Below are positions 161 through 53,264 of a stretch of 60,779 nucleotides of DNA, piece after piece. The DNA comes from Deltaproteobacteria bacterium (GTDB taxonomy: Bacteria; Myxococcota_A; Polyangia; JAAYKL01), in the NCBI GenBank assembly GCA_016937015.1, contig JAFGWT010000106.1, positions 1-60,779 of the forward strand, in the 5' to 3' direction. The position numbers were made by a program, and so were the translations under genes. The notes under the pieces were generated by a model. That model was given only the letters and a program-made list of their open reading frames with translations. It searched no databases and was not told the DNA's origin. Every line of letters starts with the position of its first letter. The first letter of the stretch is position 1.

Positions 161-1354
161 ATGTCAGGTTTAAGAACGAAACTCATTCTATTCACATGGG
201 TGTTTATGGCAGTTATGGTGTCCGCATCCTGTACCTCTCAGTCAAATGACGACAGCGCCAATTCGGACACGGACACGGACTCAGACACTGACTCTGATTC
301 TGACTCTGATACCGACACGGACTCCGATACCGACACGGATTCCGATACTGACACGGACTCTGATACTGACACGGACTCCGACTCTGACACGGACTCCGAT
401 TCTGACACGGACTCCGATTCTGACACGGACTCCGATTCTGACACGGACTCTGATACCGACACGGACTCCGATTCTGACACGGACACGGACTCCGACACAG
501 ACTCTGACTCCGACACAGACTCCGATACCGACACGGACTCCGATACCGATTCAGATTCTGACTCTGATACAGACACGAATTCCGATACAGAAAACACCTT
601 CTCTGTGGGATGCGGCACGCCCATTTCCGTTCCAGACTGGAAAACTCAGCAAACCATGGAACACGAAGGCGCTACCCGATACTACCTGCTTCACGTGCCG
701 AAAAATGCAGACAATCAAACGCCGCTGATGCTCATCTTCGGATTGCACGGATACGATATGAACAACGTGTCAGTGGCTGGCCTGTACAATTTCACTGATC
801 GATCCAACGGTCAGGCCATTACCGTTCTGCCTCAGGGGGAAGGTCCGCCCCCAGGTGATGTGTCCCACTGGGGGGATAATGTCCTGAAATCAACCTGGAA
901 TGCCGGCGACACCAACTACGGTTTTATTCGGGCACTGATTACCAGCATTAGCGAAAAGTATTGCATCGACACCAGCCGCATCTTTATTGCCGGATTCAGT
1001 ATGGGCGCATTCTTCACCAACTCAATCGCCTGTGCACACAGCGAATGGTTCCGTGGCTTTGCGCCTATTGCGGGCGGTGGCCCACAGAGATGCGACGGCG
1101 ACGTGAAATCCGCCATTATGATTCAACATGGTACCCAGGACGACATCGTGGAAATGAACAGCGGCTTGGGCAGCCGCGACTTCTGGGTGGGACAAAACGG
1201 CTGCAGTCAACAGTCCGCCCCGTCGTTCTCCGGATGCGAGAGTTATACCGACTGTCCCGAAGACGCGCCGGTTCACTGGTGCACAGGCAACTACAACCAC
1301 TACATTGATGGCACCGCAGTCGCCAATATTTGGGAATTCTTCAGCGGTCTTTGA
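161..1354 (+). CDS. Ser-Asp-stalk lipoprotein with CE1/feruloyl-esterase-like hydrolase domain
   Basis: A probable secreted, lipid-anchored esterase of 397 residues. The first 24 residues are a signal peptide ending at Cys24, although the lipobox (VSASC) is not ideal. Residues 35-143 are an almost pure Ser/Asp/Thr-Asp repeat that would act as an extended acidic stalk. Residues about 150-397 form an alpha/beta hydrolase resembling LpqC/feruloyl esterase (CE1, polyhydroxybutyrate depolymerase-like) proteins. The nucleophile motif GFSMG has Ser280, the acid is Asp327 or Asp328 in HGTQDD, and the base is His380 in GNYNH. Family members release feruloyl or acetyl groups from plant polysaccharides; the substrate here is unknown. 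The start follows a GGAAGGG ribosome site. It is the first of several stalked lipoproteins in the window. Confidence 0.85.
263..589 (+). repeat. Ser-Asp/Thr-Asp coding repeat, esterase gene
   Basis: Tandem GA(C/T)-TC/AC codon pairs in 6-base units with longer 12-18 base periods encode the acidic stalk. The units are near-identical, so copy number could change by replication slippage. All three forward frames and one reverse frame stay open here, which creates false overlapping reading frames. Confidence 0.9.
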
Positions 1355-1507: not shown

Positions 1508-1781
1508 TTGGTGGGTGCAGAGAGTGACAACGTGCGCGTTTCGGCGCGAACCTATACTGAAACCATCCGGTTAAGGGTTAGCATCGCACTGATTTGCCCT
1601 TGTCCCGATGACACCATCCTCGACGGACAGGGGCAAGCTGTCAAAGTCGTGGATGTTTCGCAGGCCTATGCGGCAACGGGATTACGGTTGACGCCAACCG
1701 CAATCTGGTCACTCCGGGTGAAGAAAACAATGACACAATTTCAATTATTGCATCACGGGCAAAACACGATAGCGTAGTCTT
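1508..1781 (+). pseudogene. Decayed beta-helix (pectin-lyase-like) gene fragment
   Basis: No intact gene is visible, but two frames together read like part of a right-handed beta-helix protein. The first frame gives a TYTET strand and the phrase TILDGQGQAVKVVDVSQ, typical of surface beta-helix proteins. Near position 1680 the similarity moves to another frame (ITVDANRNLVTPGEENND and beyond), which implies a frameshift. There is no signal peptide and no ribosome site. The 3' end runs into the convergent thaumatin-like gene. It is probably the residue of a lipoprotein related in kind to the intact beta-helix protein at 20261-21850. The call rests on motif reading only. Confidence 0.45.
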
Positions 1782-2493
1782 CGCCGGCGCAGGCGGCCAT
1801 GGAGTCGGCATCGTCACCGGACCATGAGTAGGCTTCGGTACAACCTTCATCGAAATATCTGGCAACAACGCTGTCCGGATTATTGCGATCGGGACTCACA
1901 CAGGAGACCAGGTTGCCATCAATGAGAAATTGTCCTATCTCGGGACAATCGGGCAGGAGATCGTCAGGACAGGACTTCGTGGGACAATCCGACATCTCCA
2001 GTGGCACAATGGCCATGGGCAGGTTAAAAGCGTCCACATGACTGATGTTGTACCAGTCAAAATCGTAAAAATCCGTATTGAGGGTCATCTCCGCAAGGGT
2101 ATGATGCTCCCCACCGGGATCGGGACCAATATATCCCCAGAATCGAATCGACGATATGGGCGCCACCTCTGATCCCAGATGGCGGCAATCGCTTTGTCCT
2201 GGCGGCAGCATTCCGGATTCAATATCGCTGCCTTTAAACGTCAGCACATCACCGCATTGATTGACAAACTGCAGCGACGAAAGCCCATCGCCATGGACCG
2301 CACACTCACCATCAGTAGCGCCACCAGTATCTTCGTGGTCATCGGTAGCGGTGACATTCAGCATTGTGGCTGTATCAGTGGCTGTATCAGTGTTAGGGTC
2401 ATGGTGGGAATCATCGTCGGTCAAGGTGCCGTCATCGGCACAACCAAACCACACTATTCCCACTAAAAACATCCACATCCGTTTGGTAATCAT
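1753..2493 (-). CDS. Thaumatin-like lipoprotein
   Basis: A 246-residue lipoprotein: signal peptide with Cys18 (IVWFGC), a short Asp/Thr-rich linker (residues about 25-60), then a thaumatin-family domain to the C-terminus. Visible family marks are the opening strand LQFVNQCGDVLTF, the AEMTLN strand, the DFDWYNISHVDAFNLP block (thaumatins have YDVSLVDGFNLP), paired cysteines, a YSWSGDDADS segment and the closing YAIVFCP (family YxIxFCP). Thaumatin-like proteins bind, and sometimes cleave, beta-1,3-glucans; most known members are from plants, fungi and animals. The start overlaps the stop of the upstream TOS1-like gene (ATGA), so the two are translationally coupled. The GAGGT ribosome site lies inside that gene. 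Confidence 0.85.
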   Translation of the reverse strand: MITKRMWMFLVGIVWFGCADDGTLTDDDSHHDPNTDTATDTATMLNVTATDDHEDTGGATDGECAVHGDGLSSLQFVNQCGDVLTFKGSDIESGMLPPGQSDCRHLGSEVAPISSIRFWGYIGPDPGGEHHTLAEMTLNTDFYDFDWYNISHVDAFNLPMAIVPLEMSDCPTKSCPDDLLPDCPEIGQFLIDGNLVSCVSPDRNNPDSVVARYFDEGCTEAYSWSGDDADSMAACAGEDYAIVFCP

Positions 2494-3836
2494 GGCAACC
2501 TCATATTCGCAAGACTGTCAATTGTCGTTCTCAACACGGAAGTGGGGAATCCTGGAAACAATCCATTCAAATCACTGGGAATATTTTGCGGATGAATGAT
2601 CGCGACCTGAATCATTCGCGTCGCTTCATCGAGCAAAATCATAAAAAAGCGATCTCCTTTGGGCCGTCGGAAGACTGGACAGCCATCAGAACTGCCGCCG
2701 GATTCCACAACAGGACCGACAGCATATGCATTCCGAGAGCAGGCATCCACAACTTCCACATCATCGGCAAATTGATCCCGCACGCATCCACTGCCACATA
2801 CACTGCCCCCCACATGACCATTCTGAAATGACCGAATGCCCGTACTGATAAACTCCCGGTTGGAGTAGTCGTTGTTATCCATCACTACTTCAAACACATT
2901 TATCTCACCACAGCCATCACCAACACTATTTGTTTTCGAGTAACAATTGCATAGCCCATTCCATTTACGTGCGCCATCGCGTACCAGCTCTGCTGCAACA
3001 AAGGCCATCCATGGTCCGGGATGTCCGGCGCTGTCACCATTGCATGAGCCGACGCCATTGTCATCAAAATCCATGTTGCCAAGGAGTGCAATCATTTTGG
3101 CCCCGGACCATCCCAAGTGGTTTATCCCCGGATCGTCCGGACAATAGTAGGAGTCAAACGTGTCACAATTGATTGACGGTTGCTGCATCACATACCACAC
3201 ACAATCATCATGAGTCAGTTCGCCATCAAACACTGCGTTATCATCACCACTTTTGGTAAACGCTAAATTCTCGGTATTCGCCTCGCGCCTGTCAAAAAAA
3301 GATATACGCGCCCAATGTGATGTCGCACCGCCAGTGGGTTGGTAAACGGCAAGTTGTTTCACATTCAGCGCCTTCAATATTAAAATCATTTCCTCATTAA
3401 ACGGCGCCAATTCAACGCTATCTGTATAATGCCTTTCCATGCAACAGACACCGCCCCAGCTATCCTCACCATCCCTGTAATTACAGGCAGGATCCCCATT
3501 GGGTCTATTCAGTCGCCTTGGCCACCAGCCCGCGCCGCCAATATTAGTAAACGTAATGGTGCCCCCCAGTGTGACAGCGGATGCGTCAGCGGGGTAAGCA
3601 GCACTTCCAGTGTCGAATTCACTGCCAGTCGCGCTGTCCAAATACGTTTCACTATCCACCGCAGCCTCGGTGTCTGCATGAATTGCCGAATCGAATGACA
3701 ACTCGCCATGACCTGGCGTTTCGCTTTCTGTTCCGCTTACTGCGTCGGAATCCACATCCGCGGCCGATGTTCCACTGTGATTGGCAGCGCATCCCAGTAT
3801 GAGACCAGGGAAAAGATACCATATCCATTTTTTCAT
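2490..3836 (-). CDS. TOS1-like (DUF2403/DUF2401) putative beta-glucanase lipoprotein
   Basis: A 448-residue lipoprotein with signal peptide and Cys16 (LILGC), an Asp/Ser/Thr-rich linker to about residue 85, and a domain resembling the fungal cell-wall protein TOS1. Matching landmarks are ITFTNIGGAGWW near residue 93, APFNEE and LKQLAVYQP-like strands, WARISFFDRR, a Gly-Trp-Ser-Gly segment and, near the middle, Cys-rich text followed by GCGEINVFEVV. The last block corresponds to the TOS1 GCGEYDIFE active-site-like motif; both Glu are kept but the central Asp is Asn. TOS1-like proteins are proposed GH16-type beta-1,3-glucan-active enzymes. It is the first gene of a coupled pair with the thaumatin-like gene, which suggests a shared beta-glucan target. 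The functional statement is inference. Confidence 0.75.
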   Translation of the reverse strand: MKKWIWYLFPGLILGCAANHSGTSAADVDSDAVSGTESETPGHGELSFDSAIHADTEAAVDSETYLDSATGSEFDTGSAAYPADASAVTLGGTITFTNIGGAGWWPRRLNRPNGDPACNYRDGEDSWGGVCCMERHYTDSVELAPFNEEMILILKALNVKQLAVYQPTGGATSHWARISFFDRREANTENLAFTKSGDDNAVFDGELTHDDCVWYVMQQPSINCDTFDSYYCPDDPGINHLGWSGAKMIALLGNMDFDDNGVGSCNGDSAGHPGPWMAFVAAELVRDGARKWNGLCNCYSKTNSVGDGCGEINVFEVVMDNNDYSNREFISTGIRSFQNGHVGGSVCGSGCVRDQFADDVEVVDACSRNAYAVGPVVESGGSSDGCPVFRRPKGDRFFMILLDEATRMIQVAIIHPQNIPSDLNGLFPGFPTSVLRTTIDSLANMRLP

Positions 3837-5090: not shown

Positions 5091-7499
5091 CTATTTCTGT
5101 ACGTCGATAGTGAACTCGTTCACTTTTGTACCTGTGGGATTGCCGCCCCAAATCTCAAAGCCGGCAAATACGTCGGTAAGGTACCAGCTGGACTCCAGTC
5201 CGTGAGTAACGGCATCATCCATCATGTCCTTGAGATCGCAACTGAAGTTCTGAACATCGCCGCCCTTGACCACGTAGGAAATAACCGGACGATTGGGTGA
5301 CAGGTCCGGATAATCAGGCGAAGCTTGACGAGGACCAACCCAGACATCCCAGTCATGACCACAGAAGCTGGCGTCGCCCTGGTCAGAACCAATTGGCTGG
5401 TAACCCGATGGATCGTGCAGCCACAACATGGCAAAACCGGATACCGCATCGCCGTACTCTTTGCCACCATAAGGCGGATTGTCGCTGGAGAACCAAATGT
5501 CGTATGTAACATTGGATTCACCCAGACCGCTACCACTCCATTTGAATGTACTCTGGGCGCTGCTAATGTCGCTAATCCGCGCCGGCAGGTTGTCGGTGCT
5601 GGTTGTGGTCAGCGCTTTGTTACCATTTTGCCCCACATAAATGGAGGGGAAGGAAACCGGAACGCCGCCGCCCTGTGAGCTACCGCTGAAATGGGTGATT
5701 TCAAAACTGTTATTGATGAAGTGAAGTGTCTGATAACCGCTGCTGGCACCCCAGTAGTTGTTTTGGATAATATAGTTTTCACCGTCTACAGATACCATTT
5801 TACGATCATAGTTATCGTCTTCGCCACCATCGCCGCCGCAATCGCCTTCAAGGTCTCCCATGTCATCAATCACAAATCCATCAGGTGCATCGCTTGCAGA
5901 ATTACCCTCGGCAAAACCCAGCACACAGAAGTTGTAGTCAGTTGCAGCGGATTCATCCCCTGGAACCAAAAATACCACCGCGGATATAGGCTGTCCGTCG
6001 TAGTACTCGCCAGTCCATTCGCTCTCGTCGAGATAACTTGCTTCCCAACAGGTGCTGTGGAATTCATCATAAGGCGCAAATACCTTAACGCCGCTGGCTG
6101 CACCGGCACCGGTTACCCCCAGGTCGTAACACCAACGCTCGCTGGCATCTGTGCCGCCATTCTCGGTCTGAATCTGAATGCGGATGGTTGCACTGGTCAC
6201 GTTACTGGCGATATTCACCGCAATACCGTTCTCCTTGATTTCAACCGGAGGTGGCCCTTCTGCGTCTACAGAGTCTGGGTCGTAGGTACAGTCAGCAGTG
6301 GCTTTGTCCTCGTTAATATTAAAACCGAGCAGCGCAACCGCGTCATAGGATTTGCCAACAGAACCTTCGATGCAGAAGTTTTCGCTATCGCCTCTTTCAA
6401 GGAAATCCTGAGGTTCAGCCGTTGTGTTAACGCCTTCTTTATCTATACCTGTCCATGCGCATCCGTGCCAGTCGCCGGTTGTCACATAGCCATTGCCAGT
6501 GTCGCCATCAGAATCCGTGTCACTGTCACTGTCGCTGTCAGAATCGCTGTCAGAATCGCTGTCAGTATCGCTATCGGTGTCGCTGTCAGAATCGCTGTCG
6601 GTGTCAGAATCCGAATCAGAATTAACAACTACCTCTTTACCGCCAGTGGCTATCATTTCTTCAAGACAGAAATCGTAAGGAATATCATCTTCATTATGAC
6701 CAGGAACGAGGAGCATAACTGATTCGATTGGATCAGAGCCATTGTAGGATGGGTTTCCGGATTCCCAGCATGCTTCGGTGAGGTCGTCCCATTTTACGGA
6801 GTTTGAACCGTCTTTAATTGTGGTACAGTATTCGCCGCCGCTGTCGGTCTTCACCTGCAAACGCAGTGTGAAAGAACCATTCATACTAACTGTAACATCG
6901 ATACCATCATTATCGCTGGTGGGCTCCCATGAGCCGACACTGTTCGAACCTTCGGCCTGCGAGGCGTTCATACCCAGAATACCGACAGAACTCCAGTCAG
7001 GGTCGGCAACTGTTTTACCGGTTACGCAAAGTTCACTTTCACCACCGGCTGCATCTGCAAAGTCCTCAGGATCAATCTCAGCGCCGTCAACTTCGCCTGG
7101 GCTAGTCCATGCATAACCATGCATGGCGCCTGCACATACAAATCCGCCTGTTTTAATTTCGAAGGAAACGTTGTCGCAGGAGGCATCGCCGTCGCTGTCG
7201 CTGTCCGAATCGCTATCGCTATCGCTATCCGAATCGCTGTCCGAATCGCTATCGCTGTCAGAGTCGCTATCAGAATCGCTGTCACTATCAGTGTCGCTGT
7301 CGCTGTCCGAATCACCATCGGTGTCCGAATCACTGTCATTGTCACTGTCCGAATCACTGTCGTTATCAGAGTCACTGTCGGAATCGTTATCACTATCGGA
7401 ATCACTGTCTGAATACTCAGGAAACTGGTTTTGATCGGTGCCGCTGGAACCACAGGCAGCTAACCAAAGCACTAAAAATAGTAGTAATAATCGTTTCAT
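5091..7499 (-). CDS. Ser-Asp-stalk lipoprotein with two beta-sandwich modules and a GH12-like domain
   Basis: An 802-residue lipoprotein with lipobox Cys16 (LAAC). Order: Ser-Asp stalk (about 30-106), first carbohydrate-binding-like beta-sandwich with paired Cys (about 108-290), second Ser-Asp linker (about 295-335), second related module (about 336-532), and a C-terminal domain (about 565-802) resembling glycoside hydrolase family 12. GH12 marks are [25 protein letters not shown]...QPIGS and the late AGFEIWGG. The late Glu (codon 5154-5156), the expected acid/base, is present. The nucleophile, which precedes MIWL as E-x-M-I-W in known GH12 enzymes, is Phe here (codon 5433-5435). The protein may therefore bind beta-glucan rather than cut it. 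Its paralogue is at 50500-52923. The start follows GGGAGGAC. Confidence 0.8.
6497..6622 (-). repeat. Ser-Asp coding repeat, inter-module linker
   Basis: Short tandem Ser-Asp/Thr-Asp codon repeats encode the linker between the two beta-sandwich modules of the GH12-like lipoprotein. Confidence 0.85.
7179..7412 (-). repeat. Ser-Asp coding repeat, N-terminal stalk
   Basis: About 230 bases of tandem Ser-Asp codons (GA(C/T) with TC(N) or AG(C/T)) encode the stalk that follows the lipid anchor. Some Asn-Asp and Gly-Asp variants interrupt it. The opposite strand is also open. Confidence 0.9.
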
Positions 7500-8030: not shown

Positions 8031-8948
8031 TTAATTTATGGACTGGAAGGAATTGCAAAATTCGCCAAAATCTGTTTGGCAGCTTTTTGGGCAAGCAACA
8101 CAATAAACGCAAAATTGCATCATTTCGAAATCCTGAACACCGTTCGGAAACGACTGAAAGCAATTATCCACACAGTTGTCTTTCGCAGTTGGAAGGACCC
8201 TGTCCTCACAATCGACACTGATACAGTCCTGAAGAAAAATGCATTGTGGATTGTTGTTGCAAATATTTACTGATTCCTGACATTGCTGGACCCTTGCGCA
8301 AGGCACGCAATCGTACTGACAGGTCGAACCAGCCCCGTCGCAACCTGGATTGGTCTGATTGACACAGTCACCGTTATCCATAAAACATGACTCATTGTTA
8401 CATATTTCGTCACACTTGCCATCTCCAAGCAGCACATTCTGGCATCCGGGTGAACATTCAGGAACATCGTCACAATCGCCGCCATCGTTCCCGCAGTTGT
8501 GGCCCAGACATTGATAATTGCATATGCCGTTGCCACTCATTGAGGGCACGCATCCAGGCTGACAGGCCATATCGCCGCCGCAGTCGCCGCCGTCAAAATC
8601 GCACATTTCGACATTACATGGCTCATTACACACACCATCGCCTATATCGCCAACAAGACAACCGTCCACGCAATACTTATTGTCACAATCGCCATCGTCA
8701 AACCCGCAGAACTGATTATTGCAGACATCTTCACAGTTGCCATTACCGATCATACCGTCATCGCAACCTACCGCACAGTTCTTTGGAACTTCATCTGTCT
8801 CCGGGTTGCCACCACCGCTGTCGTCCGTTCCACCATCGATAATATTGTCAGCTTTGCTGTAGTCTGACAAACCGGATATCTGGGTGCACCCGGCCGCAAA
8901 AAGGCAGGCGCCAACGAGAAATTTTAATCGAATGAGATAATCGTTCAT
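8031..8948 (-). CDS. Lipoprotein with four Lin-12/Notch-type (LNR) repeats
   Basis: A 305-residue lipoprotein starting MNDYLIRLKF with lipobox FAAGC. After a Gly/Asp-rich linker there are four tandem Cys-rich units of about 35 residues, each of the form C-x3-C-x5-7-G-(D/N)-G-x-C-x3-C-x4-C-x3-D-x-G-D-C. This is the Ca-binding Lin-12/Notch repeat pattern known from Notch receptors and some bacterial surface proteins. The C-terminal third is also Cys-rich but of another kind. The start at 8948 is chosen for its AAAGG ribosome site and signal sequence; a longer frame would overlap the upstream gene. It lies 16 bases after the TPR-PEGA gene and should be co-transcribed with it. Confidence 0.8.
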   Translation of the reverse strand: MNDYLIRLKFLVGACLFAAGCTQISGLSDYSKADNIIDGGTDDSGGGNPETDEVPKNCAVGCDDGMIGNGNCEDVCNNQFCGFDDGDCDNKYCVDGCLVGDIGDGVCNEPCNVEMCDFDGGDCGGDMACQPGCVPSMSGNGICNYQCLGHNCGNDGGDCDDVPECSPGCQNVLLGDGKCDEICNNESCFMDNGDCVNQTNPGCDGAGSTCQYDCVPCARVQQCQESVNICNNNPQCIFLQDCISVDCEDRVLPTAKDNCVDNCFQSFPNGVQDFEMMQFCVYCVACPKSCQTDFGEFCNSFQSIN

Positions 8949-8964
8949 TCTGCCGCCTTTCCGT

Positions 8965-10047
8965 CTAGAACCTGCCGGCAACCAGCACTGCACCACCTTC
9001 ATATGCGCCAACCGGCATGATATGAAGCGAAGTAATTTTTTCGCGTTTACTGCGCCCAATCAGATACATAACAAGTCCCGTACCCGCCACTGCCACACCA
9101 GCGGGAATCAGAATATTTGCCATCCTGCCGTATCCCATTGCTTCATCATACGCTTCCGCCCCATCTATCGTGTTGCACTCGTTGGCCGAATTGTCACATA
9201 AGTCTTTCACATTCTGCGTTCTCGCCATGGAAAGCCCCCCCATCACGCCACCGAAAACGGAAACCACACTGCCAACCCCCAACAAAACTGCAGCAGCAGT
9301 GCGCAATTTCTTTCCTTCATCTTTGGAGAGTTGAATGTCCGCAGTTTTTACAATTGCTGGTTCAGGGCGCTCCGCTATCGGCTCGGTCGTCTTTTCAACA
9401 TGTTCAGGTTTGGGATTTGCCGGTGAGGTGTCCGCCTGCGTATCAATGGCAACAGTCTCCACCGATTCCGAGGGAACATCTTTGTTCACCACTTCGAGAG
9501 TTGTCTCGTCCCCCCCACTCAAACGTATTGTTCGATTCAGCAGCACCTCTCCATCCAGTACAACTTTTATTTCGTGCCGCTTCCCGGCGGTGATTTTTAT
9601 CAACCCTTCAAGTGGAATTGAGCCGCGCCAGATTCCATCCACATACACCTCCGCACTGGGCGGCCCTTCCACATCAACCGATGCCACCATTTCTCGAAGT
9701 CGACGAATTTCTGCCAGGACTTCATCCTTTCTGGTGACCGTTATCTCGTCCCCGCCTTCAGCGAGAAACAGTTCAAACGCCTGAAGTGCAAGGCCATAGC
9801 GCTTTGCTGCGGACTCTGCCTGAGCAATATTGTACTGAATTTTCCATGATGGTTTTTGCCTGTTTGCTTCCCTGAATGATTCAGCGGCAGCAGAATACTG
9901 TTCAGCTGCGAACAGTTCGGTACCCTGCTGATATGCAACCCTGGCCCTGGAATCCGCGTCATCATTTGTGCTGCTGTCGTCTGCAAAAACATGGCACGAA
10001 AGCCAGAAGACCGCACAAAAAACGTTGATATAAAGCATTACTCTCAT
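8965..10047 (-). CDS. TPR-PEGA periplasmic/membrane protein
   Basis: A 360-residue protein with a signal peptide (cleavage near residue 23), TPR-like helices (about 35-110: AYQQGTELFAAEQYSAAAESF and PSWKIQYNIAQAE), and a PEGA-type beta domain (about 120-190: SAEVYVDGIWRGSIPLEG). A Pro/Glu linker follows, then two hydrophobic segments near 250-272 and 305-327 with a short C-terminal tail. Such proteins are common in Myxococcota, usually with unknown role. The paralogue at 46843-47790 has the same order of parts, and both are followed by a lipoprotein gene. The ATG at 10047 is preferred over a GTG one codon earlier. Confidence 0.75.
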   Translation of the reverse strand: MRVMLYINVFCAVFWLSCHVFADDSSTNDDADSRARVAYQQGTELFAAEQYSAAAESFREANRQKPSWKIQYNIAQAESAAKRYGLALQAFELFLAEGGDEITVTRKDEVLAEIRRLREMVASVDVEGPPSAEVYVDGIWRGSIPLEGLIKITAGKRHEIKVVLDGEVLLNRTIRLSGGDETTLEVVNKDVPSESVETVAIDTQADTSPANPKPEHVEKTTEPIAERPEPAIVKTADIQLSKDEGKKLRTAAAVLLGVGSVVSVFGGVMGGLSMARTQNVKDLCDNSANECNTIDGAEAYDEAMGYGRMANILIPAGVAVAGTGLVMYLIGRSKREKITSLHIMPVGAYEGGAVLVAGRF

Positions 10048-32694: not shown

Positions 32695-35600
32695 ATGAAA
32701 TACCTGTTTGAAGTGAGTTGGGAAGTCTGCAATATGGTGGGAGGCATCCACACTGTTCTTCGTTCCAAAGCGTCACAGGCCATCAACGACTATGGCGACA
32801 AATATTTTCTGCTTGGTCCGCTGCTCGATAAAACTATGGATTTCGAAGAAACAGACGATGACACCTTTAGTGCTATTCGTCCCGTTCTCGAAGAAAAGGG
32901 TCTAAAGTTCAGGCTGGGACGATGGAAGACAGAGGGAAATCCCCGCGTCATTCTGGTTGATTATAAGGACAGGTATGATTCCGGCAAGCTCCTCTATCAG
33001 TACTGGCAGCGGTTCGGTGTAAATTCGATGGGGAGTAGTTGGGAATATATTGAACCAGTCGTTTTTTCAACGGCATGCGGTGAGATCATAGAAACAATTC
33101 ATTCTGCCATCATAACCCCAGAAGATACTGCAACCGCACATTTTCACGAGTGGATGAGTGGCGGTGGATTGCTGCATCTGAAAAAAACAACGCCTGAAAT
33201 CGGAACCGTATTCACAACCCATGCCACCGTGCTTGGCCGTTCAATGTGTGGCGCTGGTGTTGATATTTATGCAGATAATGTACACGTTGATCCGGTGAAG
33301 GATGCGGCGGCTTACGGCGTCTCAGCCAAGGCATCTCTCGAGGCTACCTGCGCCCGCGAAGCAGATATTTTTACGACTGTCAGCAATGTTACAGCCGAAG
33401 AATCCGCAAAAATGCTCGGTATCCGCCCTCATTACCTCGTCTACAACGGTATGAACACTGATGCGCTGGACACTTTGCAGAATATTCGAAAAAAAGCACC
33501 GAAAATACGCGATAGAATTTTTTCTATGACCAAGGCATTTTTAGGTTACGAGCTGCCCGAAAACACCCGCTTCTGGGCAACCGCGGGACGATATGAATAT
33601 CGCAACAAAGGTTACGATGTACTGATTGAAAGTCTCTCCCGTCTTGACAGCGAGCTCAGGGAAACGTCAGATGCCCCTCCTGTTGTTGTCTGGCTGCTTA
33701 TTGCCAGCGGCAACGAGGGTATAAAGGAGGGGGTGAAAGCCCGCTTTGATGGCACCTGGGAAGGGCCGATTGAGGAACCGGGCATCCTCACCCATGCACT
33801 GCGAAATGAAAACTACGACAACATCGTCCAGGCGTGCCACAGACTTGGCCTCAATAACCGACCGGCCAACAAAGTAAAAATTATCTTTTCGCCCATATAT
33901 GTCAACGAGAGCGATGGCATCTTCAATACCAACTATTATGAATTGCTATCATCATTTGATCTCGGTGTGTTCCCCTCCGCTTATGAGCCTTGGGGATATA
34001 CCCCGATGGAAAGCAGTGCGGTTGGGGTTCCCACCATTACCAGCGACTTGGGAGGATTTGGTCGGTGGGTCAGGGAGCAGAATCTGGCCGTGAATAAAGG
34101 CATTGAGGTCATCGAGCGGGCGAATAGACCGTACGAAGCCATATGTGAGTCACTTTACAGAGCGCTCACTGAATATGTATTCGTTAACGATGATGAACTT
34201 GATTCCATGAGGCATCAGGCACGCAGAATCGCCGATACAGCAGGTTGGTCGGCGTTCTATCGCAACTATCAAAAGAGCTATACCGCAGCAAGCATTATCG
34301 CAGAGAAGCGGCTGAATTCTCTCGATACCAGCTCATTCTCAGATGAACTGTTTATTTCATTTAAAGGCGCTGAAGGACCTGGCCCTCACTATCGCAGATT
34401 GACCGTTGCGCCTCAGTTACCTGAGTCTTTCAGCAAGCTGGGCAAACTGGCCAATAACCTCTGGTGGGCCTGGCACCCCGAGGGTTGTGAACTGTTTGAG
34501 CATGTGGACCCCTACTTATGGAACGAAGTCGAATCAAACCCTGTGCTATTTCTCGAAAAACTGCATCCCAGTGTGCTTGAAGACAAAGAGAAAGACCCCG
34601 TTTATGTAAAAAAATATAATCGGGTTATAGATGAATTTGAGAGCTACATGGCAGCACCTGGGCGGAAATATGATTCCGGCGGAGCGCTTAGCATGGCGCA
34701 TCCCATCGCATATTTTTCGATGGAGTTTTGTATACATGAATGTCTGCCCATATATTCCGGTGGACTTGGTGTGCTGTCCGGTGATCATATGAAATCAGCG
34801 TCAGATCTAAACCTGCCGCTCATCGGGATTGGTTTTTTCTACAAGCAAGGCTATTTCCAGCAGCAAATAGACATTAACGGTATGCAGTTGGAGCACTATC
34901 CCACCATGGATCCCTCCGGTCTGCCAATCGAAGCAGTTCGCGATAGCAATAATCAGGAAATCCGAATTACAGTTCCTCTACCAGGGCGAGATGTGACCGC
35001 AAAGGTGTGGCAGGTCCATGTCGGTCGCATTAACCTGTACTTGCTGGACACAGATGTTGAGGAAAATCACCCGGATGACCGACGCATTTCATCAAAACTC
35101 TATGGCGGCGGAAAGCGGATGCGAATAGAGCAGGAAATCATTCTAGGTATGGGTGGCGTTAAGTTTATTGAAGATAAGCTTAAAATCAAACCCCAAGTGT
35201 ATCACCTGAACGAGGGACACTGCGGATTCCTTCTTTTTGAGCGCATAGAGAGACACATGAAAGAGGGGCTCAGTTTCCAGGAAGCTCGCGAAATGGTAAA
35301 AGCATCTTCTGTCTTTACGACACATACACCCGTTCCAGCCGGTAATGAAACATTCGATGTTGACCTGATGCAAAAATATTTTTCCGACATGCCTGGACGT
35401 CTTTCCATTACCTTTGACCAGTTGATGGAGATGGGATTCTCTAAACCAGGTGAAGCCAATCGAGCGTTTTCAATGACGGTTTTGGCGCTGAAACTGTCCA
35501 GTCGCGCCAACGGTGTTTCGAAGCTCCACGGAAAAGTCTGCCGTGAAATGTGGCGAGATGTGTGGAAGGAACTCGACCCGGATGAGGTTCCCATCACATC

Positions 35601-36945
35601 GATTACAAACGGTATCCACATTACATCGTGGATAGGCGAGGATGTGAAGCGGCTGCTTGACCAGTACCTGGATATCAACTGGGATGAAAATCAGGATGAC
35701 CCGATTGTATGGATGGGTATAGACAAAGTGCCTGACGAAATCCTTTGGTACGAGCATCGCTCGCAGAAAAAAAGAATGGTCGAACAGTTGAAGGAAAAGC
35801 TATATACCGACTACAGTCGCAGAGGAGAAACGCCCACATTTATCAAGGAATCCATCGAAGCGTTAAATCCTGACGCACTCACTATCGGCTTTGCTCGGCG
35901 TTTTGCCACGTATAAACGAGGAACACTTTTACTCAAGCACAGAGATGCCCTCGCCACTTTCCTCAACAACCCAGACAAGCCAGTGCAGATTCTTTTCGCA
36001 GGGAAAGCGCATCCCGCTGATACCCAGGGCAAGGAATTGATTCAAAAGATTATCGAAGAATCTCGAACACCGGAATTTAAAGGAAAAATTTTCTACCTCG
36101 AAAATTACAACATGAAACTTGGGCGTTTGCTAACCCAAGGCGTCGACGTGTGGCTCAATACACCAGTTCGGCCCCACGAAGCAAGCGGTACCAGTGGTAT
36201 GAAGGTTGTACCCAATGGAGGGTTGAACTGTTCCATTTTAGATGGATGGTGGGATGAAGGATACGACGACGATGTCGGATTCGCCATCAATTGCACTGCA
36301 ACCCCCATCGACCGGAACCACCAGGATGAAATGGACAATAACGCGCTGTTCAATATTCTCCTGAACGATATCACTCCTACGTACTATGAGCGGGATAAAC
36401 AAAACGTACCTATCGGTTGGGTGGCAAAAATGAAATCCGCCTACAGGAAGCTCGCTCCTGTATTTTCAACAATGAGAATGGTTAATGAATACCAGGAGAG
36501 ATTGTATATACCCACTGCAATGCGGGCGATGCAGCTCAGGTCAGATAATTATAGAGATATCGCCATCCTTACTGACTGGAAAAGAAGTATCAAAGCCCGC
36601 TTCTCAACGGTTCAAATCGACCATGTCAAAATCAAAGGATTGGATGGCGACATGCTCCCTCCCAACACGCCTCTCGAAATAGAGATTAATGTCATCCCTG
36701 GCAAAATGCGCGAAGAGGAACTGAAAGCTGAACTTATCATTGGACAGGATGCGGGTGAACGTTTTGCAGATGAACCCAAAACCATTCCGCTCAAGCTTGT
36801 TGAGTCTCTGGATCCAACGGTATTCAAATTCGTCCTCTCCCACCAGCTTGATTTCAGCGGTACGTTTCGTTATGCCTTGCGCGTAGTGCCGACCCATCCA
36901 TTGCTAACCTGCACTCAGGAAACTGGACTGGTGCTTTGGACATGA
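32695..36945 (+). CDS. Glycogen synthase (GT3) fused to alpha-glucan phosphorylase (GT35)
   Basis: A 1416-residue two-enzyme protein. Residues 1 to about 550 resemble eukaryotic-type GT3 glycogen synthase: EVSWEVCNMVGGIHTVLRSK at the N-terminus, FTTHATVLGR, and the catalytic AYEPWGYTPMESSAVGVPTI (two Glu seven apart). Residues about 565-1416 are an alpha-glucan phosphorylase with the short-type N-terminal domain (NNLWWAWHPE), the GGLGVLSGDHMKSASDL block, and the pyridoxal-phosphate site EASGTSGMK (Lys1170). One chain would thus add glucose from a nucleotide sugar and release it as glucose-1-phosphate. Similar fusions are known, for example in Bacteroidota. AAGGAG precedes the ATG. It closes the operon. 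Confidence 0.9.
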   Translation: MKYLFEVSWEVCNMVGGIHTVLRSKASQAINDYGDKYFLLGPLLDKTMDFEETDDDTFSAIRPVLEEKGLKFRLGRWKTEGNPRVILVDYKDRYDSGKLLYQYWQRFGVNSMGSSWEYIEPVVFSTACGEIIETIHSAIITPEDTATAHFHEWMSGGGLLHLKKTTPEIGTVFTTHATVLGRSMCGAGVDIYADNVHVDPVKDAAAYGVSAKASLEATCAREADIFTTVSNVTAEESAKMLGIRPHYLVYNGMNTDALDTLQNIRKKAPKIRDRIFSMTKAFLGYELPENTRFWATAGRYEYRNKGYDVLIESLSRLDSELRETSDAPPVVVWLLIASGNEGIKEGVKARFDGTWEGPIEEPGILTHALRNENYDNIVQACHRLGLNNRPANKVKIIFSPIYVNESDGIFNTNYYELLSSFDLGVFPSAYEPWGYTPMESSAVGVPTITSDLGGFGRWVREQNLAVNKGIEVIERANRPYEAICESLYRALTEYVFVNDDELDSMRHQARRIADTAGWSAFYRNYQKSYTAASIIAEKRLNSLDTSSFSDELFISFKGAEGPGPHYRRLTVAPQLPESFSKLGKLANNLWWAWHPEGCELFEHVDPYLWNEVESNPVLFLEKLHPSVLEDKEKDPVYVKKYNRVIDEFESYMAAPGRKYDSGGALSMAHPIAYFSMEFCIHECLPIYSGGLGVLSGDHMKSASDLNLPLIGIGFFYKQGYFQQQIDINGMQLEHYPTMDPSGLPIEAVRDSNNQEIRITVPLPGRDVTAKVWQVHVGRINLYLLDTDVEENHPDDRRISSKLYGGGKRMRIEQEIILGMGGVKFIEDKLKIKPQVYHLNEGHCGFLLFERIERHMKEGLSFQEAREMVKASSVFTTHTPVPAGNETFDVDLMQKYFSDMPGRLSITFDQLMEMGFSKPGEANRAFSMTVLALKLSSRANGVSKLHGKVCREMWRDVWKELDPDEVPITSITNGIHITSWIGEDVKRLLDQYLDINWDENQDDPIVWMGIDKVPDEILWYEHRSQKKRMVEQLKEKLYTDYSRRGETPTFIKESIEALNPDALTIGFARRFATYKRGTLLLKHRDALATFLNNPDKPVQILFAGKAHPADTQGKELIQKIIEESRTPEFKGKIFYLENYNMKLGRLLTQGVDVWLNTPVRPHEASGTSGMKVVPNGGLNCSILDGWWDEGYDDDVGFAINCTATPIDRNHQDEMDNNALFNILLNDITPTYYERDKQNVPIGWVAKMKSAYRKLAPVFSTMRMVNEYQERLYIPTAMRAMQLRSDNYRDIAILTDWKRSIKARFSTVQIDHVKIKGLDGDMLPPNTPLEIEINVIPGKMREEELKAELIIGQDAGERFADEPKTIPLKLVESLDPTVFKFVLSHQLDFSGTFRYALRVVPTHPLLTCTQETGLVLWT

Positions 36946-45595: not shown

Positions 45596-46663
45596 TCAGA
45601 TGCCAACTTTTTTAAGTACATCCGGGCAATCGATTACTTTGTAGCGAAACGCCGGGTTGTCCGCCACGTTCATCCAGTCCACGTACCACAGACAGCCCGC
45701 CAGTAAATCTTCGAGTCCCGATTTTGAAAACACGCCGGTGCACATGTCCCGCACGCACGACTTGAATGTATCGTGAGGCTGGTCATATCCAAGTTTTTCA
45801 TAACACGCCTGCAAAAAGCCACCATACGTCGCGCCCAGTTGCGAATTATCCACCCCCCATTGCGCTGAACAGCCATTAAAAGCGCCTACACCACCACCGG
45901 GAATCATGATGTCAAACTGATACGCACCGTTGATCTGGGTCACATCGTAACCAATGTTGGTCGCCTGAACGATCATTGTTTTGCCTTTAAGACCGGCCGA
46001 ACCGTCATCAATCGCCGAAGGACCGTTCTGCAATGTTTGTTTGCTCTCGCCGTTGAACTCAAGCTGAAAGCACTGCCCGCATGAAAACTCGCCGCCGGCG
46101 TGAGTGGCCACAAAGCCATATGACAGCGAATCACTGACCGCAATGGGCGCCTGGTTCCAACATGTGAAAACGGCGTTGGGATCATTGGGGGCATCACATC
46201 CACTGGGCTTGCCCTGTTCCCAGCCGTCCTGAGGAATGGTGGGGGTTGTCAACTGGTTGTCAATTGTGCATACCGGTGCCATCTGCCCATTGGAAACGTT
46301 CTCCGGCCATGCGCAGTGCGGTTTACAGCAATCCCAGTATTTCGTTGAGAATCCCAACTGCCCACCATCGCCAATGGGCGGATATTCGGTATCGCCCTCG
46401 ACCGGTCCGGTATCCGCGTCGCTGTCTGAATCACTGTCGGTGTCGCTGTCCGCATCCGTATCGCTGTCACTGTCGGAATCGCTATCGCTATCGCTATCGC
46501 TGTCGCTGTCGGCATCGCCATCAGTGTCGGAATCCGCATCGCTGTCACTATCCGAATCTGCATCACTGCTGTTGCCCCCGGTTCGACGATCGCCGTCAGT
46601 GCACCCGCCCCAAAGCAATGTATTTAAAATCAGCAAAGAAATGAATAACCACACGTATTTCAT
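45596..46663 (-). CDS. Ser-Asp-stalk lipoprotein with GH45 endoglucanase domain
   Basis: A 355-residue lipoprotein: lipobox LWGGC (Cys21), Ser-Asp stalk (34-84), then a GH45 domain. GH45 marks are [15 protein letters not shown] (catalytic base Asp111), [34 protein letters not shown] with Asp251, and [17 protein letters not shown]. The Humicola enzyme has its catalytic acid Asp where this protein has Asn263 (FNGC against FDGC); I believe Asn occurs there in some family members but cannot check. GH45 cleaves beta-1,4-glucans and is mostly known from fungi, protists, nematodes and insects. The ATG at 46663 follows GGAGG. It is not co-oriented with the next lipoprotein pair. Confidence 0.9.
46409..46564 (-). 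repeat. Ser-Asp coding repeat, GH45 lipoprotein
   Basis: About 155 bases of Ser-Asp/Ala-Asp/Thr-Asp codon repeats encode the stalk between the lipid anchor and the GH45 domain. Confidence 0.88.
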
Positions 46664-46842
46664 AAGAACCTCCATAAAATAAAAGCGTAAAGCCTTAAAC
46701 GATCAAAATATAGCAGATTTCTCCAGTATTACCAAAATGGAACGACCATGCCGCCTATTTGTCACTCTTGACACCTTTGAAAAAATACTGAAATACTAGG
46801 CCAAAAACACAAAAAAGTGCGACGCAGTAAGGACACATCTGA

Positions 46843-49360: not shown

Positions 49361-50336
49361 TCAACAACAGCCCCGCCTGTTCGCGTCAGCGAATGCATAA
49401 AATATTGCCCAACATTCCATGCGCTCATGGCTGTTTCCAAGTGTGCTGATTCGATTCCGCTCCACCGGCAGGCCAGGCTATTGATAGGAACAGGCATTCC
49501 CACATACACCAGCACACTGTGCGACATTTTTCACCGTGATGCTTCTTTGCTGAACCCAATCGCAAAACGCATTCTGCAGAAAATCAAGGAATCAGAATAC
49601 ATCAATGCAAACGAAACGAGAATTGGTGTGCAGGATGGCACAACGGCCTATGTATGGAATTTTTCAACCGATAAATATGTCGGCCACTTTTTTAATCAAA
49701 CTCGAAGCGAGGAAACACCCAAAGCCATTTTGGGCGACAGCATCGGTTTTCTGCAGGTGGACCAGTACAGCGAATACAATCAGGTGACCACGCTGGTCAA
49801 GCGAAATCGCGTGGGATGCCTTGCACATATGCGTCGCAAATTATTTGAAGCAAAAGATGTCGCGCCCAAAGACTGCAAATGGATGCTTGAGCAAATCCGT
49901 GAACTGTACATCGTTGAATACGATGCCGCTGAGGCGAACGTGCTTCGCGGCGAACAGCATCTCGCCTTGCGTAAAGGACGCAGCCAATCAACAGTGAACG
50001 ATATAAAAAAGTGGCTCGAGCAAAACGAAAATCGATGGGGACCCAAAAACAAAATGGGCCGAGCAGTGAGATAATCTCTGAATAACTGGGACACGCTGGT
50101 GAAGTTTCTCGACAATCCGAAACTGCGCATCGACAACAACCTGGCCGAACGGGCGCTGCGAATATTGCCCTTGGAAGAAAGAATTTTCTTTTTGTGGGTA
50201 ATTGCGAAGCGGGGCAGAATCTGGCAACGCCTCAGACACATGTATGTATTTGAAAAACAATCCCCTCGAATACCTGACTTATGTCCTCATTAAAAACCAG
50301 CTCGATCAGGCATCCGAAATTGACCTTTTGCAGTAA
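49361..50336 (+). mobile_element. Degenerate IS66-family transposase remnant
   Basis: An open stretch from 49361 reads as the middle and C-terminal part of an IS66 transposase (DSIPLHRQARLL, LQVDQYSEYN, RVGCLAHMRRKLFEA). An in-frame TAA at 50072 interrupts it, after which the frame continues with LRIDNNLAERALRI. A later frameshift moves the ending (NNPLEYLTYVLIKNQ) to another frame, stopping at 50334-50336. The N-terminal part and the first catalytic Asp (DET, here NET) are missing. No terminal inverted repeats were found. The element is dead. Confidence 0.85.
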
Positions 50337-50499: not shown

Positions 50500-52923
50500 C
50501 TACTCAAGATAGAAATTGGATACTTTCAAACCACTTCCACCATTGAGGATTTCAAACCCGGCCTGAACACTCCAAAGACTCATGCTTTCAGTGAGCCCCA
50601 GATTGTTTTCCGCAGCGTGCTTGATCACCTGAGCAAGATCGATGTCAATTTCATTCCGGAAATTGCGCAACGCATATGTGATCACTTTTTTGCCGTTGTG
50701 TTGCACACCGGAAATTACTGAAAACGTAGAACCATCAATCTTCACATTGCTGAGCCCATCGACTGGACATGCTGTAATACCGACGGGGGCATCAGCTTCA
50801 CAGGTATTGTCACCATCATCCCCGTTGGGTGTCTTGTTGTTCGTGGGATTCATATCCCCGTTCTTGTACAACCAAATCATCAGAAAAACGTCCGGTTCTC
50901 CACTTTGGCTACCACTGGCTCCATTAGAGAAGTAAATATCATACGTAGCGGCATACTCACCACTGGTAGTCATCGCATTTGTGTGGAAACCAGTGCAGAG
51001 ATTGCCACCACTAATGATATCGCCTACGGTTTTGGGAAGTCCTGAGCCGCTCGTCCATTGCCCCCCTTCCTGACTGCCACCACGATAGACAGACGGGAAC
51101 ATCTGTACGTCTGTACCTGAAGAATTCACTGTTACATTTGAAATGGAGAACATATTACCGCCACCAACAGTAACCGTTGCCGCCCCGGAACCACTGCCCC
51201 AGAAATTGGTGGCCACTTTATATGCATTGCCATTATTCTGAACATCCATCCAAGCGTATTGTTCGGAAGAACTGCCAGAACCGGAAATACTGCCACCACC
51301 ACTGCATACGGACGGCTCAGAATCGCCATCAGACACTTCTACAAAATCAACACAGAATTCGAAATCAATTTCCTCATCTTCAAGCGCAATTGGTTGAATG
51401 ATGATATCAGTAATTTTTGGAGACCCCGCATCAGTATAGCTGGTGCCGTCTCCCCCTGACCAGCATTCCGTATTGAATGTGCTCCACGGAATGAACTCCT
51501 CGCCATCCCCGGAAAGATTCGCGCACCAACGTTCATCAGCATTGGTGGCGCCATTTTTAGTCTGAATTTGAATTCTTAATCCCTCTGATTTTTCTTTATC
51601 TGTCACCTTCACGCGGAGACCTTCACCAGTAGGTGTAATTTCGTCTTTCTCCTCGTTGTCGATGTCCATGGTACAATCCTGAGCAGTGGGGAAACCAATA
51701 CCCGCGCTGGAGTAGTTCATTCCAACTGTACCAGATACACACATTGAGTCACCAGCTTCGATGTCGTCAAAATCCTGAGGACTGATGGTGCTGGATTTTT
51801 CAAGAGTTTCGCCATCGACCTCAACCATCTCTGGTGGATCCTGATCATACGTATACACAAAACCATGCAGCGGTCCGGACTGATAAAAACCCTGATCATA
51901 GATTGCCCAGGAAATTCCAGGATTGATATCCGGACAAATATGCTCTCCTGTATCACTGTCTGTGTCAGAATCGCTGTCGCTGTCAGTATCGCTATCACTG
52001 TCGCTGTCTGTGTCGCTGTCTGTATCCGAATCGGAATCGGTGTTGACAACCACTTCCTCACCGCCGGTGGCGATCAGCTCTTCGAGACAGAAATCGTACG
52101 GGATGTCATCTTCGTTGTGACCGGGCACCAGGAGCATAACAGCCTCAATTGGATCGGATCCGTTGTAGGACGGATTTCCGGATTCCCAGCATTCTTCGGT
52201 CAGGTCATCCCATTTAACTGAGTTTGAACCATCCTTGATTGTGGTGCAGTATTCGTCCCCGCTGTCGGTCTTGATTTGCAGACGAAGAGTGAAGCTGCCG
52301 TTCATATTGACTGTTACGTCAATACCGTCGCTGTCTTTGGTTGGCTCCCATGCGCCCGTGGCGGAACTGCCATTTTCCTGTCCCGCGTTCAGACCCAGAA
52401 TACCAACAGAGGCCCATGACTCGTCGCCAACCGTTTTCCCGGTCACGCACAGTTCGGTTTCGCCTTCTGATACGGCTTCAAAGTTCTCAGGGTCAATCTC
52501 GGCACCGGCGATTTCGCCTGGAGATGCCCAAGCGTAGCCGTGCATGGCGCCAGCACAAACGTAACCGCCCTGATGGATAGAGAAAGACACGTTGTCGCAA
52601 GGGCCTGTGTCGCCATCAGAATCGCTATCGCTGTCTGAGTCGCTGTCTGAATCACTATCGCTATCTGAGTCAGAATCAGAGTCACTATCGGAATCGCTGT
52701 CACTGTCAGAATCACTGTCAGAGTCACTGTCAGAGTCGCTATCCGAATCTGAATCGCTGTCCGAATCAGAATCGCCATCCGAATCAGAATCGCTATCAGA
52801 ATCAGAATCGCTATCAGAGTCCGCGTCAGTATCACTCGAGTTGGTGTAATATGGCTGTTGGGTTGACGAATTACCGCAGCCGACAACCAAAAGGGTTAAA
52901 AACAACATTAATAGATACTTCAT
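50500..52923 (-). CDS. Ser-Asp-stalk lipoprotein with two beta-sandwich modules and a GH12-like domain, second copy
   Basis: An 807-residue lipoprotein (lipobox VVGC), paralogous to the one at 5091-7499 and with the same order: Ser-Asp stalk, beta-sandwich module, Ser-Asp linker, second module, GH12-like domain. In the last 95 residues of the first module only about seven positions differ between the copies, while the GH12-like domains are much more divergent. GH12 marks here are [34 protein letters not shown] and AGFEILNGG. The late Glu is kept (codon 50551-50553). The nucleophile position before LMIWL is Phe (codon 50884-50886), as in the other copy. GGGAGG precedes the ATG. Confidence 0.8.
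51949..52043 (-). repeat. Ser-Asp coding repeat, inter-module linker, second copy
   Basis: Short tandem Ser-Asp/Thr-Asp codons encode the linker between the two beta-sandwich modules. Confidence 0.85.
52612..52838 (-). repeat. Ser-Asp coding repeat, N-terminal stalk, second copy
   Basis: About 225 bases of tandem Ser-Asp codons encode the stalk after the lipid anchor, equivalent in place to 7179-7412. The opposite strand stays open through it. Confidence 0.9.
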
Positions 52924-53264
52924 TTTCGAAACCTCCCAATTAAGGATAATCAAAACGGTCCATTCTGTTATTGATGGACACTATTGAGTAAATTATTTCC
53001 GCCAACACACCGTTTTCCGTCTCACTGTCCGGAAAAATCCGGCCCATCATACCATATTCTCCACGCTCGTTGAGAATAAAATAGTAAGAGATGCAAATTC
53101 ATCGTGATTCGCAACCATTCTGAACAAAATCGTCAAACGCCCAGGTGAGACACTTATAATCTAACGCGGCACCCATGTCCTGAAGCGATTATCAAATGTT
53201 CGCATGTACTAACGTATAAAGTCGTCATTGCCGGACAAAAAGTGTCATAAAAACCGGGATGCGG
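52924..53264. other. Intergenic stretch, no gene recognised
   Basis: About 340 bases between two minus-strand genes. The left part is the leader of the GH12-like gene. No tRNA, long hairpin or small gene with a ribosome site was seen. Confidence 0.5.

Follow-up and report, generated by a model that had tools for sequence, protein, structure and literature searches.

A GH12-derived domain clade without the nucleophile glutamate and its probable role in beta-glucan binding at the cell surface

The DNA analysed here (the window, a stretch of 60,779 nucleotides in all) carries at 5091-7499, on the minus strand, a gene whose product ends in a GH12-like domain with phenylalanine at the place of the catalytic nucleophile. 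According to the sequence trees, the nucleophile Glu was lost once, in an ancestor represented in the bacterial class of the window, and the nucleophile-less form was then kept, duplicated and spread through many plant-polysaccharide degraders. The gene product is probably a lipid-anchored polysaccharide-binding protein of the cell surface, and its C-terminal domain, derived from a GH12 endoglucanase, would hold a plant glucan rather than cut it. The features are as follows.

5091..7499, minus strand: whole gene (open reading frame), 802 amino acids, with signal, Ser-Asp linkers, two N-domains and the GH12-like domain
7452..7499, minus strand: lipoprotein signal peptide (16 protein letters, not shown) with the lipid-carrying Cys16, predicted from the lipobox pattern and the sequence
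7185..7412, minus strand: Ser-Asp repeat linker 1, residues 30-105
6630..7151, minus strand: N-domain copy A, residues 117-290, without a Pfam family
6489..6620, minus strand: Ser-Asp linker 2, residues 294-337
5883..6497, minus strand: N-domain copy B, residues 335-539; its AF2 model resembles CIA30 and CBM11 beta-sandwiches
5100..5777, minus strand: GH12-like domain, residues 575-800, C-terminal
5499..5501, minus strand: Asp667, conserved in GH12
5433..5435, minus strand: Phe689 at the place of the catalytic nucleophile Glu, from phmmer and profile alignments
5421..5429, minus strand: active-site residues Met691 (5427-5429) and Trp693 (5421-5423), with their role taken from PMC12265866
5154..5156, minus strand: Glu782, the acid/base Glu
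50500..52953, minus strand: second gene with the same architecture; its probable start is at 52923
50503-51246, minus strand: GH12-like domain of the second gene
50884-50886, minus strand: Phe690 of the second gene, at the nucleophile position; its Glu801 lies at 50551-50553

Family membership was determined with the PF01670 profile, which scored 78.9 bits against a cut-off of 27 (E 7.7e-22) and covered positions 2-206 of 207. The nearest PDB relative was the GH12 endoglucanase 1oa4 (E 1.3e-33 with phmmer, 3e-55 with a profile of 16 sequences). The first-pass annotation had placed a GH12-like domain at 5091-7499; the domain is real, but it occupies the last third of that interval only. In the phmmer alignment to 1oa4, the F of F-A-M-L-W-L was set on the E of E-I-M-I-W-F with no gap in the motif. 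Alignment with GH12 structures had been proposed as a check of the substitution, and the same gapless placement of the Phe on the nucleophile Glu was obtained when 16 homologues were aligned as a profile with 1oa4, 7mkr and 2bw8. The earlier reading of the E-x-M-I-W-L strand as F-A-M-L-W-L is thus borne out: the nucleophile Glu of the E-x-M-x-W strand is absent, with Phe689 (codon TTT) in its stead. The acid/base segment AGFEIWGG is intact, as had been stated, and contains Glu782. The gene had also been called a first copy, and the other copy in the window likewise has Phe. An alternative alignment with another Glu at the nucleophile position, for example that of GKEYGD, was rejected, as the profile alignments to the PDB sequences are gapless within the motif and the upstream Glu is not conserved. 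In a fold search bearing on the GH12 beta-jelly-roll, the top Foldseek matches were also GH12 (1oa4, E 9.7e-11). They were obtained from a poor AF2 model (pLDDT 52.6, five input sequences), so that no distances were measured and the geometry of the site is not derivable from it.

GH12 domains were gathered from the class of the window, in which 47 of 318 genomes had GH12. The tree set comprised 142 domains, 139 from the class and three PDB references. In the nucleophile column, 58 domains carried Glu and one Asp; the remaining 83 had Phe (43), Tyr (33), Trp (2), Leu (2), Ser (2) or His (1). Two quick trees were calculated, both with SH-aLRT support only. In the first tree, the non-Glu domains and one long-branch Glu domain (L082) formed one group (SH-aLRT 96). 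For the second tree, five long or unsure rows were removed and the motif columns were excluded; a single branch (SH-aLRT 98) then separated the non-Glu domains from all others, and one state change was counted, compared with a mean of about 43 after shuffling of the labels. Several independent losses were therefore rejected, since the mixing with L082 vanishes without these rows and columns and one change suffices. Phe and Tyr are interspersed in the tree; what has been maintained is thus aromatic character together with the absence of a carboxylate, rather than one given residue. Besides Glu-bearing GH12s, the genome of the window encodes additional paralogues in which Phe, Tyr or Ser occupies this position. 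In a sample of the phylum (379 genomes), one genome outside the class had GH12, and this domain bears Glu. Viral contigs yielded one distant GH12, with Glu, and plasmids three distant GH12 matches.

A decaying pseudogene, or an error of sequencing or assembly, can practically be discounted. The genome assembly is fragmented (564 contigs), which would favour such an explanation, but the frame is open over 802 codons and the same Phe is found in three relatives (70-76% identical) from two other genomes of the same genus. The state is moreover conserved throughout the clade of 83 domains, which refutes this explanation, and the clade is under purifying selection: dN/dS ranged from 0.05 to 0.18 in clade pairs (synonymous sites unsaturated) and from 0.04 to 0.28 in Glu-type pairs. 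Chance, or a sequencing error at the codon itself, was rejected because of the same Phe in the three relatives and the 83 GH12 domains without Glu. The two genomes of the relatives are MAGs named "Deltaproteobacteria bacterium", isolates Zod_Metabat.76 and ZodW_Metabat.4, names that presumably refer to Zodletone spring; the class is probably a myxobacterial one.

Conservation in the clade is concentrated in the remainder of the active site. Glu782 was kept in 80 of 82 rows, Asp667 in 81/83, Met691 in 81/83 and Trp693 in all 83. All four columns rank within the eleven most conserved of 220, the nucleophile column 61st. The four residues occur together in 79 of 82 clade rows, and two of the three exceptions have lost more than one of them. 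At the nucleophile position, L160 carries Trp, and its Asp is replaced by Val, its Met by Glu and its acid/base Glu by Gln. L002 and L138 both carry Ser there; in L002, Lys replaces the Asp and Glu the Met, and in L138, Gln replaces the acid/base Glu. In L002, which is from the genome of the window (contig C365, motif SVEIW), and L160 (genome G274, motif WVEIW), a Glu thus stands in the Met position, two residues past the lost nucleophile. With the conserved Asp gone, this is possibly a relocated carboxylate. The alignment of the 83 domains was searched for a compensating carboxylate, and no new conserved acidic column was found in the clade.

In a characterised archaeal GH12, activity is abolished by exchange to Ala of either catalytic Glu or of the Met that follows the first Glu at a distance of two residues, and exchange of the Trp two residues past that Met leaves 1.5% (PMC12265866). 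From their spacing, we take this Met and Trp to be the equivalents of Met691 and Trp693. Since the four residues are kept, dN/dS is low, and Met and Trp are needed in GH12, the cleft is being maintained by selection, even though the family's reaction should be impossible. The first-pass annotation held that the domain is derived from an enzyme and is no longer a retaining glucanase. This is well supported by the effect of the Ala exchanges, by a substitution that is old, of single origin and fixed, and by the lack of a conserved replacement carboxylate in the clade. The case was understated there, as the clade-wide state with its interchange of Phe and Tyr went unseen.

Binding of beta-glucan is the most likely role of the GH12-like domain, judged from the conserved cleft and the genomic setting. 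The domain has kept both its cleft and the general-acid side of its active site, so it would still accommodate the chain of a beta-glucan, be it cellulose, mixed-linkage glucan or xyloglucan. At the place of the nucleophile, the aromatic ring may pack as a floor beneath the -1 sugar, and formation of a glycosyl-enzyme would be impossible. The retained acid/base Glu and Asp are what the binding reading explains least well. Retention of the acid/base Glu in 80 of 82 rows is not required of a module that only binds, and binding by itself therefore accounts for the conservation only in part. Glu782 and Asp667 may contribute no more than hydrogen bonds to the chain, or they may have an active role.

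Two active roles were weighed. First, Glu782 and the cleft might disrupt contacts between glucan chains without hydrolysis, in the manner of expansins. The near-constant retention of the acid/base Glu and Asp667 after the loss of the nucleophile points in this direction, and there is a precedent in expansins, loosenins and swollenins, which keep the acid Asp of GH45 without the base (PMC10909974). GH12 enzymes, however, are retaining and differently folded, and a lipoprotein tethered by Ser-Asp linkers suits capture better than diffusion; we regard this role as unlikely. Second, the domain might still be an enzyme, in which Glu782 and Asp667 cleave by an inverting or an anhydro-forming (lytic-transglycosylase-like) reaction, or which has a substrate that can be processed without the nucleophile. 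The conservation of these two residues is compatible with such chemistry, and members of GH45 subfamily C hydrolyse without the usual base (PMC10909974). It is nevertheless quite improbable: loss of the nucleophile kills the characterised GH12 (PMC12265866), no new carboxylate has become conserved in the clade, and Phe and Tyr interchange freely at the nucleophile position, so that the residue there is not itself chemical. We put forward tentatively, as a rather doubtful proposal, that the clade with its retained acid half and aromatic floor comprises expansin-like non-hydrolytic disruptors of beta-glucan or catalyses a single-carboxylate (inverting or anhydro-forming) reaction.

Glycosidase-derived proteins with the acid kept and the second catalytic residue missing are known from the GH45 family: expansins and loosenins retain the acid, lack the base and are non-hydrolytic, whereas subfamily C lacks the usual base and hydrolyses (PMC10909974). 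These are double-psi barrels of inverting ancestry, unlike the present domain, which by sequence is GH12 and not a GH45-like double-psi beta-barrel, and which has an aromatic replacement; the analogy is functional alone. Compared with the GH12 endoglucanases of Streptomyces (1oa4, 1nlr), Acidothermus (GuxA, 7mkr) and Rhodothermus (Cel12A, 2bw8), the domain matches over its full length and shares the acid/base Glu, the conserved Asp and the Met and Trp of the active-site strand. It differs from them in the clade-wide Phe or Tyr for the nucleophile Glu, and its protein in the two N-domains of unknown type, the Ser-Asp linkers and the lipoprotein signal.

A GH12-derived protein that has lost a catalytic residue is also known from Phytophthora sojae, where PsXLP1 is an inactive decoy (PMC8960721). 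The protein of the window might by analogy bind an inhibitor or another protein and shield Glu-bearing GH12s, as PsXLP1 does for PsXEG1. Among the domains fetched, Glu- or Asp-type GH12s were present in 25 of the 37 genomes of the clade, which favours such a role, but they were missing in the other twelve, and the conservation is centred on the catalytic cleft, which a decoy does not need. A decoy or partner-binding function is accordingly very improbable. In PsXLP1, it is the other catalytic Glu (E222) that is missing, through truncation of the C-terminus; its partner is an inhibitor from the plant, and it is a single paralogue, whereas the nucleophile-less GH12s form a large clade.

The architecture of the protein fits the preferred role, glucan binding at the surface. 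A lipobox, LAAC, ends at Cys16, and the protein is probably surface-anchored. With a simple pattern, a lipoprotein-like signal was detected in about half of the nucleophile-less reading frames of the clade. The N-domain (5883-6497 and 6630-7151 in the window; also in L005 and L038) is undescribed, widespread and present on some Glu-bearing GH12s. It lies ahead of the GH12 domain in 47 of 88 non-Glu rows and in eight of the Glu type, and behind it in two of the Glu type, many of the loci being incomplete. Pfam searches gave no match beyond chance for the N-domains, including to profiles of known CBMs, and a PDB sequence search returned nothing useful. The AF2 model of the N-domain (pLDDT 73) resembles a chain of a complex I assembly intermediate (7zkq, E 1.5e-4), which we read as the factor CIA30/NDUFAF1, and CBM11 (1v0a, TM 0.48/0.56). 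This likeness of the model is weakly suggestive of a beta-sandwich binding module.

The CBM-like N-domains on their long Ser-Asp linkers and the GH12-like cleft would together hold plant polysaccharide at the cell surface, to be cut there by the cell's own GH5, GH9, GH45 and Glu-bearing GH12 enzymes. In the genome of the window, the GH5 Cellulase family was matched 15 times and GH9 12 times. GH9 was present in 35 of 37 genomes with nucleophile-less GH12, compared with 56 of 281 others; these counts ignore the relatedness of the genomes. The surface glycan-binding proteins of Bacteroidetes utilisation loci are lipoproteins with several glycan-binding domains in polysaccharide degraders. The present protein resembles them as a predicted lipoprotein with several putative glycan-binding domains, and is unrelated to them in sequence.

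In the literature searched, from which most subscription journals were out of reach, no paper on bacterial nucleophile-less GH12 groups was found. In a survey of the carbohydrate-active enzymes of myxobacteria, GH12 is entered among the cellulases, and neither "inactive" nor "catalytic residue" occurs as a term (PMC12093494). More than half of the GH12 domains sampled in the class lack the nucleophile, and cellulase counts based on GH12, such as those of this survey, would therefore overstate the cellulase content. The clade constitutes a natural experiment, in which one catalytic residue was lost once and the other was kept in nearly every descendant. The role of the acid/base Glu of a glycosidase once its nucleophile has gone is thereby made testable.

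Several other genes were observed. A bacterial GH45 is encoded at 45596-46675 (minus strand) of the window and aligns to solved GH45 endoglucanases over the catalytic segments. Neighbouring genes at 1753-3836 (minus strand) encode a thaumatin-like protein and a protein weakly like the fungal cell-wall protein Tos1/YJL171C (E 1e-5, just under the Pfam cut-off); both families are associated with beta-glucan elsewhere. At 161-1354 (plus strand) lies the gene for an esterase-like lipoprotein of the alpha/beta-hydrolase type, in which a similar Ser-Asp linker recurs. An IS66 transposase fragment (49427-50074, plus strand) adjoins the second GH12-like gene. One relative has three tandem genes of the GH12-like design (L038, 4780-10900), the third of which ends with the locus before the nucleophile position. 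The reading frame at 32695-36945 (plus strand, 1416 amino acids) has glycogen synthase first, followed by phosphorylase-type domains (DUF3417, Phosphorylase), and is apparently a fusion. At 8031-9059 (minus strand), a protein with four Notch-type LNR repeats is encoded in this bacterium.
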